Translations under genes and position numbers: made by a program | In this document: positions 9,030 through 23,111 of the stretch, piece by piece | Layout: every line of letters starts with the position of its first letter | Numbering within the stretch: position 1 is the first letter of the stretch | Source: a virus | Direction: 5' to 3' (one strand) | Length of the DNA: 30,094 nt | IMG/VR virus record: IMGVR_UViG_3300003876_000006 | Span: 1 to 30,094 of that record | Notes under the pieces: generated by a model | Told to the model about the DNA's origin: nothing | The model's database searches: none | What the model saw: only the letters and a program-made list of their open reading frames with translations

Positions 9030-9905
9030 ATGTCAAAAGGAGTACCGGCTTTAACAAATCAGCCAAGAATTCAAATAGTATGTGCAGCAGGACAAAGTTT
9101 TTCGCAAAGAGCGTTAAAGTCTGTCCTGAATGAAATTTCTCAAATGCAACAGAGAGACACTCCTGCAGGAACTTACACAAACCAAAGATGTAACGGAGAT
9201 TCGCCTTACGCGATTGCTATATGGAACATCATAAAGACAGCAGGATCTACATCTGCTTTAGGAACCGTCACAGCAGCTACCGCAATAGCAGGAAATACTG
9301 TGACTGCAAATGGATTAGTATATACTGCAGTAGCAGGAGCTAAATCAAATAGCACAGAATTTTCAATAGATGGAACCAATGATGAAGTTGCATCAGATCT
9401 TGCAGCTTCTATAACTGCAGACCAAAGAGTTGGAACGTTAGGAGATTTATCAGCATCATCTGCAGCAGCAGTTGTTACAATAACTTCTACACTTGAGGGT
9501 ACAGCAGGAGATGCTGTGACTTTAGCATCCTCGGGAGCTACTTTAGCAGTATCAGGAGCTACTTTAGCAGGAGGAGTTGACGCTGCAGATTACACTATCA
9601 CATTTGTATCTGAAACTGGTGTAACAGGATCAAGCGCACTAAACCGTCCGGCATTATCTCAAAGAAGATTGCTTGACATAGCATTTGTATTAAACGGATT
9701 CAATTTCACAGTTAGATCTGCCATGGCAGCAATTAACTATATTGAGAAGTTTGAGGACAAAGTAGCGTCTAGTGGAGATGTAAATGCATTAGATGGCACT
9801 TATGCAAATCAAAAAGTAGGAGGATTTACTCCATACGAAGAGTACAGATGGGATATCGTGAAAGCGGACAATGTCTATACTTTGACACCTACTGCAACCT
9901 CATAA
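9030..9905 (+). CDS. Putative virion structural protein with an inserted Ig-like module
   Basis: A 291-aa, Ala/Thr/Gly-rich protein. Residues ~74-184 form a module (IAGNTVTANGLVYTAVAGA, SDLAASITAD, AAVVTITSTLEGTAGD, SGATLAVSGATLAGG) of the immunoglobulin-like type often inserted in phage tail and head proteins. The flanks resemble each other: GTYTNQRCNGDSPYAIAIWN (residues 48-67) and GTYANQKVGGFTPYEEYRWD near 256-275 share GTYxNQxxxGxxPY and the Trp. Helices precede each copy. The gene has its own promoter box and intrinsic terminator, as expected for an abundant virion component. A head decoration or tail-tube protein is possible; the exact role is not determined. Confidence 0.65.
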   Translation: MSKGVPALTNQPRIQIVCAAGQSFSQRALKSVLNEISQMQQRDTPAGTYTNQRCNGDSPYAIAIWNIIKTAGSTSALGTVTAATAIAGNTVTANGLVYTAVAGAKSNSTEFSIDGTNDEVASDLAASITADQRVGTLGDLSASSAAAVVTITSTLEGTAGDAVTLASSGATLAVSGATLAGGVDAADYTITFVSETGVTGSSALNRPALSQRRLLDIAFVLNGFNFTVRSAMAAINYIEKFEDKVASSGDVNALDGTYANQKVGGFTPYEEYRWDIVKADNVYTLTPTATS

Positions 9906-9955
9906 AAGTTTCGTTTTTAGTAATTTTTTTACGAAGTTTTTTGATTGATGGATGG

Positions 9956-9984
9956 AAACCACTTCTTAACGGGAGTGGTTTTTT
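9956..9984 (+). terminator. Intrinsic terminator
   Basis: A perfect 8-bp stem, AAACCACT (9956-9963) with AGTGGTTT (9974-9981), with a 10-nt loop, runs into a T stretch (9979-9984). It closes the transcript of the 291-aa structural gene. Confidence 0.8.
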
Positions 9985-9986
9985 AT

Positions 9987-9994
9987 TACCTTTA
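9987..9994 (+). promoter_or_regulatory. Promoter-like box (TACCTTTA)
   Basis: TACCTTTA, one base from TAnnTTTG, follows the terminator and ends only 4 nt before the ATG at 9999. If active it would give a nearly leaderless message. The same eight bases recur at 17516-17523. Confidence 0.3.
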
Positions 9995-9998
9995 CATC

Positions 9999-10601
9999 AT
10001 GGGGAGAGGAGGAAAGTCTTATGATCATTTAACTTTAGAGGATAAGATAAATCTAAGGAGAGATTCAGACGATAGAATCTTCATCCCAGTAGTTAAAGGT
10101 AAAGTATATATTCAAAGACCCGAATTGAAAAAGCAAAAGGAGTTCATTAAAAAAGAGGGAGAGACCTTCAACTTTTTACAGTATGTTGGAATTGTCTACG
10201 ATTGGGCTATGGCCAATTATAAGATATCAAGACCTCAAGTTGATTTAGTATTATACCTACACCCTCTTGGAATATTCACAAGAGAGGAAGCTTATAAAAC
10301 GCTAGAGCTCTGGCCATGTTCAAAATACATGGTCCTTGAGAAGTTGATCAACAAAGGTATGATCTATACAGTACAATATTCTAAAGATAGTAGGAATAGG
10401 AGACAGCCGGTATATAGTTTAACTAACAAGGCCACAATGATGGTCAACATATTTTATAAAAAAGTAACAGGCGAAAGGAAGTTTGCGACGAGCCACGTCT
10501 CACTAGGTCACATAAATAAAAACGCTTCAAAAGACTTTAAGTACGACGATATAATAGGAAAGTTCAATCAAATGGTAAAAGATAAGAATGATGAAACTTA
10601 A
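9999..10601 (+). CDS. Winged-helix (MarR-like) DNA-binding protein
   Basis: A 200-aa protein starting MGRGGKSYDHL; the upstream ATG at 9945 is rejected because it would read through the terminator hairpin. Residues ~60-160 have the order of a MarR-type winged helix: helices around VDLVLYLHPLG, TREEAYKTLE and SKYMVLEKLINKGMI, then a two-stranded wing containing RRQPVYSLTNKA. The final ~35 residues are charged. The gene overlaps the next, a predicted secreted protein, by 14 nt, so the two are expressed together. It could regulate late genes or host surface genes; the fold is likely, the target unknown. Confidence 0.65.
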   Translation: MGRGGKSYDHLTLEDKINLRRDSDDRIFIPVVKGKVYIQRPELKKQKEFIKKEGETFNFLQYVGIVYDWAMANYKISRPQVDLVLYLHPLGIFTREEAYKTLELWPCSKYMVLEKLINKGMIYTVQYSKDSRNRRQPVYSLTNKATMMVNIFYKKVTGERKFATSHVSLGHINKNASKDFKYDDIIGKFNQMVKDKNDET

Positions 10602-11148
10602 ACTAATAATACTGATAATACTTCTTCAACAACCCTTTAATATTACAGAGCACATATCTGATATGCAAGGAGGTTGGTCCATAGGAAATGGTTGTGATGA
10701 GCACTTCACGGATTGGGCGACTGTTTCAAGTGTAGAGACAAATGGACATCCCCTAGAAGTAATGAATGGATGGCTAGACATACAAGGCCAAATTCAGGAG
10801 AACGGAGTAAATCAAGACGTTGTTCAAATGATTGTAGATGGAAGGGTAATTTTGAGATGCACAGAGTCTATGATATCAGTAAATACAACTCTATCTACAA
10901 TAGAGGAAGACTTCCAAGTTGCTAAAGTATTTCCAAATCCTTTTGGATCTCAAATAACAATTAAGGGAAACGGAATCAAAAGGTTGATAATTTATGATAT
11001 CAATGGCAAAAAGATTATTGAAAGACCCACAACATTTAATACAACTGTATTACAATTGGGATACCTACAATCAGGATTGTATTTTCTTCAAGTACACTTT
11101 GATTTAAAAGTTCCTGTAGTTGTCAGGATCATTAAAAATAGTGCCTGA
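10588..11148 (+). CDS. Secreted protein with a type IX secretion C-terminal sorting domain
   Basis: A 186-aa protein in three parts. Residues 1-~16 are a hydrophobic signal peptide (KLKLIILIILLQQ). Residues ~22-108 form a small mature domain with two cysteines (36 and 91) that could pair. Residues ~113-184 are a T9SS type-A sorting domain: KVFPNPFGSQITI, RLIIYDINGKKI, LGYLQSGLYFLQV, VRIIKN, in the usual order (PNP, YDxxGK, L-x-SGxYF-x-V, K near the end). T9SS carries such proteins across the outer membrane of Bacteroidetes and attaches or releases them, removing this domain. The gene is translationally coupled to a winged-helix gene and precedes the fibre genes. A surface role in the infected cell, such as receptor masking, is inference. 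Confidence 0.82.
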   Translation: MMKLKLIILIILLQQPFNITEHISDMQGGWSIGNGCDEHFTDWATVSSVETNGHPLEVMNGWLDIQGQIQENGVNQDVVQMIVDGRVILRCTESMISVNTTLSTIEEDFQVAKVFPNPFGSQITIKGNGIKRLIIYDINGKKIIERPTTFNTTVLQLGYLQSGLYFLQVHFDLKVPVVVRIIKNSA

Positions 11149-11158
11149 AATAATTTAC

Positions 11159-11166
11159 TACTTTTG
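11159..11166 (+). promoter_or_regulatory. -7 box (TACTTTTG) before the fibre region
   Basis: TACTTTTG fits TAnnTTTG and lies 21 nt before the ATG at 11188, after the stop of the secreted protein. No -33 TTG at standard spacing is visible. It probably drives the fibre and lysis genes up to the terminator at 17539. Confidence 0.4.
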
Positions 11167-11480: not shown

Positions 11481-12353
11481 ATGCCGAAAATACAATCAAG
11501 CGCAGTAGCCAGTACCCTATTTAATTTAGACGGGTTAAATTATGGCCGAAATCAATTTCAACTTGTCTACAATAATGTTGAAGTTGCTAATGGATTAGTA
11601 GACGAGTCTACTATACAAGTAGGCTTATTCAGTAGGTATCAACAAAAATACTTAGTACAACCCACTCAAGTAAACACTTGGACCAATGCTTCGGACATCC
11701 CATATTCAAGTTTAGACTCTTTGATAACGGATATAGAATCAATAGTTGGTTTTGAGATGGGGGAATCAGGAGGAGGCGCAGGAACCCCTGCAGGAGCAGA
11801 CGGAGAAATACAGTATAACTCATCAGGAGCTTTTGGAGCAACTTCTAACTTATTTTGGGACAACACTAACACAAGATTAGGTGTAGGTAACAATACACCT
11901 ATAACAAGTATAGATACTGATGGAGAAATTTCTGTAGGAGATGGAGCTGCAGCTCTACCGAGTTTAAACTTTAAGAATTCAGCATCAGCTACAGGACTTG
12001 CACTTGTTAGAGCTAATACAATAGGAGTTGTATTAGCTGCAACTACGAGATGGTCTTTTGACTCTAGTTTTTTTGGAGGAGAGTCTTCATTTACACCTAG
12101 ATTAAGAACACCCGGAGATACTGTAAATCCAACTTTTACTTGGAGAAGTGATATAGATACTGGAATGTTAAGAGATGCTGCAGATGTAATAGCTCTAGTG
12201 GCAGGAGGAAATAAAACATTAAAAGTTAGATCAACTATAGTAGAAGTAGATGATTTAGAATCATTTGATGGAGTAATATTGACATCTCCCGATACTACGA
12301 GATGGAAGATAACTGTAGATAATGCAGGCCTTTTAGTCACTACCTCACTATAA
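11481..12353 (+). CDS. Tail fibre-like protein with N-terminal adaptor domain
   Basis: A 290-aa protein. Residues 1-92 are the module also encoded alone by the preceding gene. A glycine-rich hinge (GESGGGAGTPAG) follows, then GEIQYNSSGAFGATSNLFWD, a sequence type characteristic of phage fibre proteins, and beta-rich repeats (LNFKNSASATG, FTWRSDIDTGMLRDAADVIA). This arrangement fits an adaptor joined to a trimeric fibre shaft. It lies 11 nt after its paralogue and 10 nt before the large spike gene. A large open frame on the opposite strand over the same bases is considered a shadow. Confidence 0.68.
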   Translation: MPKIQSSAVASTLFNLDGLNYGRNQFQLVYNNVEVANGLVDESTIQVGLFSRYQQKYLVQPTQVNTWTNASDIPYSSLDSLITDIESIVGFEMGESGGGAGTPAGADGEIQYNSSGAFGATSNLFWDNTNTRLGVGNNTPITSIDTDGEISVGDGAAALPSLNFKNSASATGLALVRANTIGVVLAATTRWSFDSSFFGGESSFTPRLRTPGDTVNPTFTWRSDIDTGMLRDAADVIALVAGGNKTLKVRSTIVEVDDLESFDGVILTSPDTTRWKITVDNAGLLVTTSL

Positions 12354-18245: not shown

Positions 18246-20309
18246 ATGGCACTAATAGAGAATCAAAGTATATACCCATTAAAACCCAACCCAGTAAGTA
18301 CTGATTTTGTAACCGGTACTGACTCGCAAGACAGTAATAGGACAGTAAGTTTTTCTATCTCTGCCTTGCAAGCTGCAGTAGGAGCAACTATATATACATT
18401 AAGTAATGTAGTACCTGACGCGCGTACTGTCACTCATAATAATACTATGAGTTTTACAGGACCTATGGCAGCATCGGAATTTTTAGCCCAACACACAAAT
18501 GGCCATGTATTCAGAGTCAATCAAAATGGGATATTTGGAAGCAGCTTTGGAGTAGGAATAATTACTCAAAACGCTTCGGCGATATTACAAGCTGACTCCA
18601 CAACAAAGGGCTTCCTACCTCCAAGAATGAGCACTTTACAGAGAAATGCTATTGTATTTCCTGCAACTGGCCTGACTATATTTAATACCTCATCAGGTTT
18701 TATAGAAACTTATGATGGGTCTACATGGACCACTAATTCAAACATCAATATATACAATGCTAATGGAAGCATAACAGAAGATCGAGTAGTCTCAATTGAA
18801 TCAAACAACAAATTAGTATTAGATTCGTACAATACAGATTCTTCAAACTATACTAACAGATCTACCTTAACTATGGTATCTAATAGCGTACTACTAGAGT
18901 CGGTAGTAGGAGATGGCTTAGGAGGAGTGGTCTCTATAACATCTTTTTCTATAACTCAAGCAGGATCAGGTATATTTACTGATGGAACTAACTCTAAAGG
19001 AATTGAATATGCTGCAGATTACTCTACAAACTTCACAACGAGATCCCTTGTTGATAAGGGTTATGTAGATAGTGTCTTAGGATCTACTACAATTTATACC
19101 GGCGACGGAGTTATTAATAATGTCAATAGAGTTGTAACCTTAAATGACACGGATGATAGTGGCAATGAACTTTTAATACAAACTACAGGAACGACCTTGT
19201 CTACAGGTATAGCGATTAGATATAATCAAACTAGAGTCTACGCCTCTAATGGAGCAAATATTACACAGTTAAATATAAATCAATTTAATGCAGTTTTTAC
19301 TGATGCTATAAACTCTATAGGTATTCAGTATGCTGTAGATTATTCAGCAAACTTTACGGCAAGGTCCTTAGTTGATAAAGACTATGTAGACTCTGCAGTA
19401 GGATCTACTTTTTATACATCTGATGGAACAATAGACGCTACTTCAAGAGTAGTGACTGGGAACAACAATAGTAATGTAACCTTCTTTTTAAATGACCTTA
19501 CATCCCCTAACTTCAATAACAGAGGATTATTAAGGATAGGCCCTGCTACATCTAGTATTGGAATTGAGCAAGGGAATGGAGCCGGAGTCGTTACAAATCA
19601 AATGTTAATAAACGCAACTACAGCAGCATTTACTGTAACGGATTCTATAAACAATAAAGGAATGGTCTATGCTGCAGACTACTCTGCAAACTTTACATTA
19701 AGATCTCTAGTAGACAAGGAGTATGTAGATGGGATAGCAGGGGCTACCATTTATGCTGCAGATGGCATTCTAACACAAAAACGTACTGTAACAGGGCAAG
19801 GAGGGGATGCTATTTCTTTTATACTTTACAATTTAACTTCTGCAGATTACACTTCTGCAGGGCTTATGAGTGCAACAAGCTCATCAGTAAAATTAGCACA
19901 TCAAGTTGGCGACGGAGCAGGAAATTTAGACACAGAAGTATCTATTTCCACACTCCCTACAGGAGTTCTAATAGAAGATACTACAAATAATAAGGGAGCT
20001 GAATATGCTGCAGATTACTCTGCAAACTTTATAGATAGATCACTAATCGATAAAGGTTATGGAGATCTTCTTGTAGCACAGAATATGGTAATGGTAAGAC
20101 AGGCATCAGACTTTGGCGTTATTGATTCTTCAAAACTATATTGTGTAGATGGTATTGTGGATATGTCATCTACAACTATAGAAGTGCCATCAGGAGGTTT
20201 AAATATTTGCGGATTAGATATAGAAATTTCAAAACTTATAAGTTCAGATAACAATTACGACATGTTCACTAGGGAGTGGAAATGTATTTATAAATTCTTT
20301 AAGCATTGA
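18246..20309 (+). CDS. Second tail fibre, N-terminal part (frameshifted)
   Basis: A 687-aa open frame. Residues ~1-40 (IYPLKPNPVSTDFVTGTDSQ, then DSNRTVSF) match the adaptor of the spike at 12364. STTKGFLPPRM near residue 120 is a typical fibre-shaft phrase. Four repeats follow at roughly 330-nt spacing, each containing YAADYS-NF--RSLVDK-YVD and then a beta-rich stretch (the fourth ends RSLIDKGYGD). The frame ends in FKH at a TGA, but the adjacent frame continues the same kind of sequence. Replacing GGG at 20272-20274 by GG would fuse them as MFTRSGNVFINS. The gene is probably one fibre of about 1000 residues, broken by an indel or read by frameshifting. Confidence 0.7.
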   Translation: MALIENQSIYPLKPNPVSTDFVTGTDSQDSNRTVSFSISALQAAVGATIYTLSNVVPDARTVTHNNTMSFTGPMAASEFLAQHTNGHVFRVNQNGIFGSSFGVGIITQNASAILQADSTTKGFLPPRMSTLQRNAIVFPATGLTIFNTSSGFIETYDGSTWTTNSNINIYNANGSITEDRVVSIESNNKLVLDSYNTDSSNYTNRSTLTMVSNSVLLESVVGDGLGGVVSITSFSITQAGSGIFTDGTNSKGIEYAADYSTNFTTRSLVDKGYVDSVLGSTTIYTGDGVINNVNRVVTLNDTDDSGNELLIQTTGTTLSTGIAIRYNQTRVYASNGANITQLNINQFNAVFTDAINSIGIQYAVDYSANFTARSLVDKDYVDSAVGSTFYTSDGTIDATSRVVTGNNNSNVTFFLNDLTSPNFNNRGLLRIGPATSSIGIEQGNGAGVVTNQMLINATTAAFTVTDSINNKGMVYAADYSANFTLRSLVDKEYVDGIAGATIYAADGILTQKRTVTGQGGDAISFILYNLTSADYTSAGLMSATSSSVKLAHQVGDGAGNLDTEVSISTLPTGVLIEDTTNNKGAEYAADYSANFIDRSLIDKGYGDLLVAQNMVMVRQASDFGVIDSSKLYCVDGIVDMSSTTIEVPSGGLNICGLDIEISKLISSDNNYDMFTREWKCIYKFFKH
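18992..20074 (+). repeat. Four fibre repeats with YAADYS...RSLVDK signature
   Basis: The coding sequence for YAADYS-NF--RSLVDK-YVD recurs near 19007, 19329, 19668 and 20003, giving periods of about 322, 339 and 335 nt. The DNA core (TATGCTGCAGATTACTC and close variants) is conserved even between units with quite different intervening sequence. This suggests duplication of a fibre segment and possible recombination between units. Confidence 0.7.
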
Positions 20310-21246
20310 AGTTACTGGAACAAGCTCAAATGTGTTTAATTTAAAATCTGAGACTGGTAATGAAGCATTAGAAATAAATAAGGTTAACTTTAATGGATGC
20401 ACTTCCCGAGGATTAGTAGATAACTACAGGCAAATCTTTGAAAGTAATATTGGCTTGTTTGGAGGTTCTCCCGACTTAGAGCTTATAGGTACTATGAATG
20501 GTTATAGAATTGATGCATTTATTGCTAGAGGAATAACTGTACCTACAGCCTTATTTAAAACAGGAGCAGGGTTAATCTTTCAAGGCAGAATTGCTTGGGG
20601 TATGAATATTGACTTACCGGCAACGGGAGCCCTTTTTGATTTTAGTAGCTCTGAGTTTACTTTAGAAGAGTCTTTTGAGTTGAATGGCTGTTTTATAACA
20701 AGGTCAGGAATATTGGACTCATCGGACACTACAATATATCCCAATATGAATGAAAGTGACGTAGTGTCATTTTGGATAAATAATGCAGGAATTACAAACA
20801 CTAAAAAACTAATTAAAGCAACAGTAACCTCAGAAGTTACCACAGTCATAACTGCTATAAATACATTTGAAATATTATTAGGAACTTGGACCCCGAGCAA
20901 TAGTAGTCACTTGGATATGCCTAGTAATGGAGAGTTTAGGAATTTAGGTCAAACAGACAAATTTATAGTCCAAGGAAATCTCGTAGTTGAGGGAGGCGCT
21001 AGCGATGTAATAAGTGTAAGACTTACTAAGAGTACAGATGGAGGCTCTACATGGCCCGTGTCAGTAGATTCTTCAACTAGGCAAGTAAATAACTTATCAG
21101 GGGGGAGAGATATAGCTTTCATACCTTTATTATTTATTGTAGATTTGAACAAAGATGATAAAGTCAGATTGGAAATTGAAAATCAAACCACTACTACAAA
21201 CTTAACTGTAGAGTCAAACTCTGAAATATTATTAGATGAAGCATAA
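20242..21246 (+). pseudogene. Second tail fibre, C-terminal part (displaced frame)
   Basis: This frame is open from just after TAA at 20239 to the stop at 21246. The only ATG near the front (20332) lies well inside conserved-looking sequence: GSGNVFINSLSIEVTGTSSN precedes it and reads smoothly into VFNLKSETGNEALEINKVNF. Independent initiation is therefore unlikely. The remainder holds further beta repeats and a C-terminal ~100-residue domain (KFIVQGNLVVEGGASDVISV ... KVRLEIENQT) that could bind the receptor. It overlaps the upstream frame by 68 nt. If the break is real, the virion lacks this fibre tip unless ribosomes shift; otherwise it is a sequence error. Confidence 0.62.
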
Positions 21247-22555: not shown

Positions 22556-23111
22556 ACATATAAGAGCGGACAATGGACAAGTATTTTATATAGGGCTAGG
22601 TAAATCAACGGACAGAGCTAAAAGTAAGTCGGGCAGAAATATTTACTGGAAAGAGATAATTGAACAAACTAGTTACAATATAGAGATTGTTGCCAAAAAT
22701 TTAAGTAAGGAAGAGGCTGTAGATTTAGAAAGATTACTGATAGAGGAGTACGATAATCTGTGTAATATAACATCAGGAGGGCAAGTAGGTTGTTTGGGGT
22801 ATAAGCATACCGAAGAGGCTAAGAGAAAGATTTCAAGATCTTCTAAGGACTACACAAGGTTTCCTTTGTCCTTAGATCATAAGAGAAGTCTAGCTGTTTT
22901 TAGAAGAGGTAAAAGGTGGAGTAAAGAATTGTACGACACTCATTGTTTACCAGTAGGCCAATATACAAAAAGGGGACAGTTTATAAAAGAGTGGAAATCT
23001 ACTACAGAAGCAGGAAGAGTATTAAATATTAACAGCGGAAATATCTCCTCATGTCGAAATGGCAATAGAATGTCGGCAGGAGGCTTTATTTGGAAGCATA
23101 TAAATAAGTAA
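22542..23111 (+). CDS. GIY-YIG homing endonuclease with NUMOD domains, non-ATG start
   Basis: The frame is open from CAG TAC ATT ATT at 22536 and has no ATG before the last quarter, so AUU at 22542 or 22545 is the likely start. The protein begins IIVYRHIRADNGQVFYIGLG, the VYRHI and FYIG elements of GIY-YIG nucleases. Arg in DRAKSKSGRN and Glu in EAVDLERLLIEEY are candidates for the catalytic pair. NUMOD3-like GYKHTEEAKRKIS follows, and the C-terminus GQFIKEWKSTTEAGRVLNI, then GNISSCRNG and GGFIWKHI is a NUMOD1-type DNA-binding repeat. It overlaps the GroES-like gene and abuts the terminase, the usual pattern of a free-standing mobile endonuclease. Confidence 0.78.
   Translation: MIVYRHIRADNGQVFYIGLGKSTDRAKSKSGRNIYWKEIIEQTSYNIEIVAKNLSKEEAVDLERLLIEEYDNLCNITSGGQVGCLGYKHTEEAKRKISRSSKDYTRFPLSLDHKRSLAVFRRGKRWSKELYDTHCLPVGQYTKRGQFIKEWKSTTEAGRVLNINSGNISSCRNGNRMSAGGFIWKHINK

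Follow-up and report, generated by a model that had tools for sequence, protein, structure and literature searches.

Why would a phage carry a gene whose product seems addressed to the type IX secretion system (T9SS) of its host? The question is raised by a virus record fragment of 30,094 bases (the window, by which we mean the whole stretch of DNA analysed), in which a first-pass annotation had read a 186-aa frame as a T9SS substrate (Table 1). In our view, the best explanation is that the host T9SS exports this phage cargo, leaving it on the cell surface or releasing it, in the service of a function at which we can only guess; to this reading as a whole we assign a probability of about 0.72.

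Table 1. Features of the cargo locus, in window coordinates.
Feature	Position	Strand	Basis or remark
Terminator-like hairpin, 13-pair stem and T run	9954..9983	+	sets this unit apart from structural gene 9030-9905
TACCTTTA, near-match to Bacteroidota -7 box, just 5' of gp078 homologue	9987..9994	+	
Upstream gene, phi38:1 gp078 homologue, regulator-like	9999..10601	+	PHROG 17028, E 6.5e-8
Predicted T9SS cargo gene, 186 aa	10588..11148	+	open frame, coding signal; exceeds the PF18962 and TIGR04183 cut-offs
Sec signal-like N-terminus (n-region MMKLK, h-region LIILIILL)	10588..10641	+	hydropathy, charge
Cargo part, ~90 residues, cysteines C36 and C91, without known relative	10642..10923	+	
Predicted type A T9SS C-terminal sorting domain, aa 114-184 (FPNP, YDINGK, SGLYF, RIIKN)	10927..11139	+	profiles, fold
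TACTTTTG, match to Bacteroidota -7 box	11159..11166	+	likely where the next unit, that of the fibre genes, begins

A predicted type A sorting domain

The claim that the protein ends in a complete sorting domain is borne out by both curated profiles, each of which matches significantly and above its cut-off: Pfam PF18962 (E 4e-9; 37.1 bits against a cut-off of 27) and TIGR04183 (E 4.4e-9; 36.2 bits against 23), the latter over positions 1-72 of a 72-position model. A profile built from 15 other sorting domains, with this one left out, gives 55.7 bits, and the probability of such a match arising by chance among the ~30 genes of the window is ~1e-7. The invariant motif residues are retained in the alignment, where FPNP, YDINGK, SGLYF and the final K are all visible.

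Structure prediction without an alignment was uninformative, and we used instead an AlphaFold model whose alignment consisted of 13 bacterial sorting domains; there the domain reaches pLDDT 90-98. The top fold matches in the PDB are the domains of NucA, FspA, RemA and RemZ bound in the T9SS SprA translocon, with those of mirolase, PorZ and PorU also among the best. T9SS domains overall match with Z 9.7-11.4 and rmsd 1.4-2.8, and the modelled Ig-like fold is that of translocon-bound substrates (8glk_D, Z 11.3; 8glj_D, Z 10.4; 8gl6_D, Z 10.4). Generic Ig-like domains rank lower, at Z 9 and below, a lead for the T9SS domains that is small, if consistent; it is the sequence profiles that settle the assignment. 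By sequence and predicted fold, then, the annotation of the protein as a type A T9SS substrate is well supported.

Might the protein instead belong to the virion or tail, with the domain as mere Ig-like decoration? Virions often display Ig-like folds, and the gene sits between a virion gene at 9030 (the structural gp077 homologue) and the fibre genes. Set against this are the signal-like N-terminus, the ranking of T9SS over generic Ig-like domains by both fold and profile, and the fact that a separate unit seems to begin at the fibre genes, all of which makes a virion protein improbable.

A small cargo behind a signal-like N-terminus

Codon use argues that this is a genuine coding frame: it scores +0.155 per codon, compared with 0.03 or less in each of the other five frames, and in this frame only it resembles that of neighbouring phage genes.

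The annotation of a signal peptide holds for the n- and h-regions. The eight-residue h-region has a mean KD of 4.15, carries a charge of +2 ahead of it (two lysines) and is the most hydrophobic N-terminal stretch among all genes of the window. The annotation falters at the cleavage site: no A-X-A-like or small-X-small site follows the h-region, and no lipobox cysteine lies close to the hydrophobic stretch. Other phage T9SS proteins have likely cleavage sites (NA/Q, YA/Q, SYS/Q). Since a canonical signal peptidase I site is lacking, this segment may be an inefficient signal or may anchor the protein in the membrane; a signal peptide is likely present, and constitutes the weakest link of the cargo reading.

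Both cysteines that had been noted in the mature part are indeed there. Searches with the whole protein against phages (tblastn, E to 10), viral contigs (two scans, one with the single sequence and one with a profile) and plasmids recovered sorting-domain or chance matches only. The cargo part by itself found nothing above chance in phages, viral contigs or plasmids, nor in 397 genomes of one Flavobacteriaceae-type family, that of a Winogradskyella MAG; one large protein of unrelated appearance in those genomes matched at E 0.006, which we judged to be chance. Pfam and TIGR profile searches returned no enzyme match for the cargo part, and the protein has no BACON match. In the AlphaFold model the cargo part stays below pLDDT 60, and we therefore leave its fold unassigned.

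The locus in the window and in its relatives

Core genes and gene order place the phage as a close relative of Callevirus (Pervagoviridae). Its portal protein shows 62% identity to the portals of Cellulophaga phages phi38:1, phi40:1 and Calle, its terminase matches at 61% and its GroES at 52%, and homologues of gp075, gp077 and gp078 follow one another in the same order. The "crAss-like" placement of the first-pass annotation has to be dropped: in the current taxonomy Pervagoviridae, the family of the nearest relatives, stands directly under Caudoviricetes, outside Crassvirales.

In phi38:1 the order runs recombinase gp075, structural gp077, gp078, RyR-domain gp079, structural gp080, gp081, gp082, lysin gp083 and gp084. 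Calle and the viral contig IMGVR 3300035034_000423 (with its near-copy 3300012147_000038) share the order gp075, gp077, gp078, gp079, gp080. In the window the homologues of gp075, gp077 and gp078 are followed by the T9SS cargo gene and then by fibre genes; gp079, gp080, gp081 and gp082 have no match anywhere in it, and homologues of the lysin and of gp084 are located further downstream. The slot after gp078 is thus taken by a RyR-domain gene in phi38:1, Calle and the independent contig, and by the T9SS gene in the window. A look for the same gene in related phages had been proposed, and we find no sorting domain in the records of phi38:1, Calle or the two contigs, which are perhaps incomplete. 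One further contig, with a portal gene 100% identical to that of the window, ends before the cargo locus. Because the relatives have a RyR gene at this slot and no sorting domain, the cargo gene is, judged by gene order, a lineage-specific accessory gene that occupies, next to gp078, the position of the RyR gene.

A gene of this kind could simply be a passenger, a host gene recently picked up by chance and put to no use. It is, after all, absent from all relatives with the same slot and has no phage homologue. Suppose this were so: we would then not expect codon use like that of the adjoining phage genes, an overlap with the conserved regulator-like gene, or a size far below that of most of the bacterial T9SS proteins we recovered, whose lengths are mainly 340-1230 residues. 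We consider this explanation improbable too.

How is the gene likely to be expressed? It had been described as coupled to a winged-helix regulator; the coupling stands, in that the cargo gene starts inside the upstream gene with an overlap of 14 nt, and the winged helix is represented by weak, sub-threshold matches only. One homologue of the gp078-type gene is annotated as a repressor. For the regulator-like gene itself, ATG 9999 is a more likely start than TTG 9945. The motif TAnnTTTG occurs 55 times in the window against 35 expected, a count reached in 0 of 100 shuffles, and a scan of the window for sigma-70-type promoters gave a count not above that of shuffles. The string TACCTTTA also precedes phi38:1 gp080. 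Because the hairpin and the TACCTTTA box lie 5' of the gp078 homologue and the TACTTTTG box precedes the fibre genes, we infer that the gp078 homologue and the cargo gene may form a two-gene transcription unit. The position just before the fibre genes is confirmed, with fibre-type frames following directly from 11188.

Four further observations concern other genes of the window. The 93-residue frame at 11188-11469 copies the N-terminal module of 11481-12353, a duplicated fibre-type module. The structural protein of 9030-9905 has a mid-protein insert of ~100 residues that is absent from phi38:1 gp077. Two tail-type frames, 18246-20309 and 20332-21246, resemble one gene split by a frame change, be it a true split or a sequencing error. 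Between GroES and terminase, the short frame at 22794-23111 carries I-HmuI-like NUMOD and NUMOD3 motifs and is probably the remnant of a homing endonuclease.

Other phage-encoded T9SS cargo

The cargo gene is not unique. It joins a kind of gene already reported in a few phages, given that sorting-domain proteins were described in crAss-like cluster 2 in 2019 (PMC6949934), that T9SS cargo genes were reported in Cryophage in 2020 along with a proposed hijack of the host T9SS (PMC7468147), and that we find further examples. Such genes are rare: among 50,697 phage records, a consensus sorting domain matches only five at E up to 1, and a bacterial origin is probable for at least two of these. The "phage" records MT836089 and MT836839 were set aside, their neighbouring genes and cargo resembling a bacterial chromosome. 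Megaphages LR745206 and LR756502 encode proteins of 199 and 186 aa, each with a signal peptide, a cargo of 100-120 residues and a sorting domain. In both, this small T9SS cargo gene (L012, 1147-1707; L013, 1105-1704) is flanked on one side by a DnaJ-like gene and on the other by a large gene of opposite strand, and LR745206 carries in addition a weaker sorting-domain-like gene (L016, 1270-1680; 136 aa). Three IMG/VR contigs carry T9SS cargo proteins of 630-636 aa; in two of them (L050 and L068) neighbouring genes match phage families. The 630-aa proteins of L068 (3617-5509) and L074 (3065-4963) are related, the latter with a weak dockerin match. Further phage proteins with an annotated T9SS sorting domain are present in BFVD. 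We found no experiments on any phage-encoded T9SS cargo in the literature searched.

Probable export and possible function

In this reading, the small cargo protein would be produced during infection and exported to the periplasm by Sec; the host T9SS translocon (SprA with PorV) would recognise the C-terminal domain, the cargo would cross the outer membrane, and the sorting domain would be removed, with the cargo staying on the surface or being released. Export by the host T9SS is likely on sequence grounds: placing cargo on or outside the cell is the established role of this domain. We infer that the signal peptide works, that the host has a T9SS and that export takes place. Relatives of the phage infect Cellulophaga, and in C. 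baltica, a host of such relatives, the T9SS core proteins GldK-N have been detected and mutations in gliding/T9SS genes lead to phage resistance (PMC13288928). The same architecture in other Bacteroidota-type phages (see also PMC7468147) also counts for export. Should the protein be exported, a secretion route specific to Bacteroidota would be serving the phage to deliver one of its own proteins to the exterior of the cell it infects. Flavobacterial phages already need T9SS and gliding proteins in order to infect, and export of this kind would tie them to the T9SS at a second level. For the close relatives phi38:1 and Calle, cultured hosts are available.

What might the cargo do there? Our best guess, held with low confidence, is that the exposed cargo would alter the outer surface and thereby keep other phages, or progeny of the phage itself, from binding the cell or its debris; superinfection would be blocked, or progeny shielded from receptors. 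T9SS export would be apt for exclusion because gliding adhesins exported by T9SS are often what flavobacterial phages depend on. SprB and RemA have been proposed as receptors (PMC13288928; for F. columnare, PMC7345892). A small protein displayed via T9SS could hide or occupy receptors that reach the surface by the same route. More doubtful still is a generalisation in which Bacteroidota phages would share superinfection exclusion via T9SS, small and fast-changing cargo covering T9SS-dependent receptors; among Callevirus relatives this gene would be the first case.

Just as tentatively, the exported cargo may act on other targets (surface polysaccharide, metal, a competitor), as a fitness gene of the infected cell and not a block to phages. 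Cargo in other phages would fit activity on substrates, being beta-helix-like in L050, dockerin-like in L074 and enzymatic in Cryophage (PMC7468147); the present cargo has only ~90 residues and lacks an enzyme match, which argues against such a role. Least probable, in our estimation, is a cargo that jams or occupies the translocon so that host adhesins serving as phage receptors are no longer exported. A small cargo with an intact recognition domain would suit this scenario, as would the proposal that T9SS-exported adhesins are flavobacterial phage receptors (PMC13288928; PMC7345892), but we see no stop-transfer or plug feature and the idea is pure conjecture.

Comparison with known systems

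Llp of phage T5, a small protein that acts at the host surface to prevent phages from binding (PMC9586334), might be a functional analogue of the exported cargo. Llp is a lipoprotein and not a T9SS substrate.

Among T9SS proteins proper, the Bacteroidota type A cargo (NucA, FspA, RemA, mirolase, gingipains) shares the sorting domain in sequence and predicted fold; the window protein differs in being phage-encoded, in its very small cargo part and in lacking a clear cleavage site. The gut crAss-like phages of cluster 2 likewise have sorting-domain genes, theirs lying near the head section and accompanying BACON repeats (PMC6949934), whereas the window phage belongs to another family and its protein has no BACON match. 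In Cryophage, as here, a type A sorting domain sits at the gene end in a variable genome region (PMC7468147), but the cargo there comprises an endoglucanase, a GH39 enzyme and a PA14 protein, as opposed to 90 residues of no known family in a Callevirus relative. Megaphages LR745206 and LR756502 have cargo parts without sequence relation to ours and genes beside a DnaJ-like gene, yet they share with the window phage the build of a small protein.
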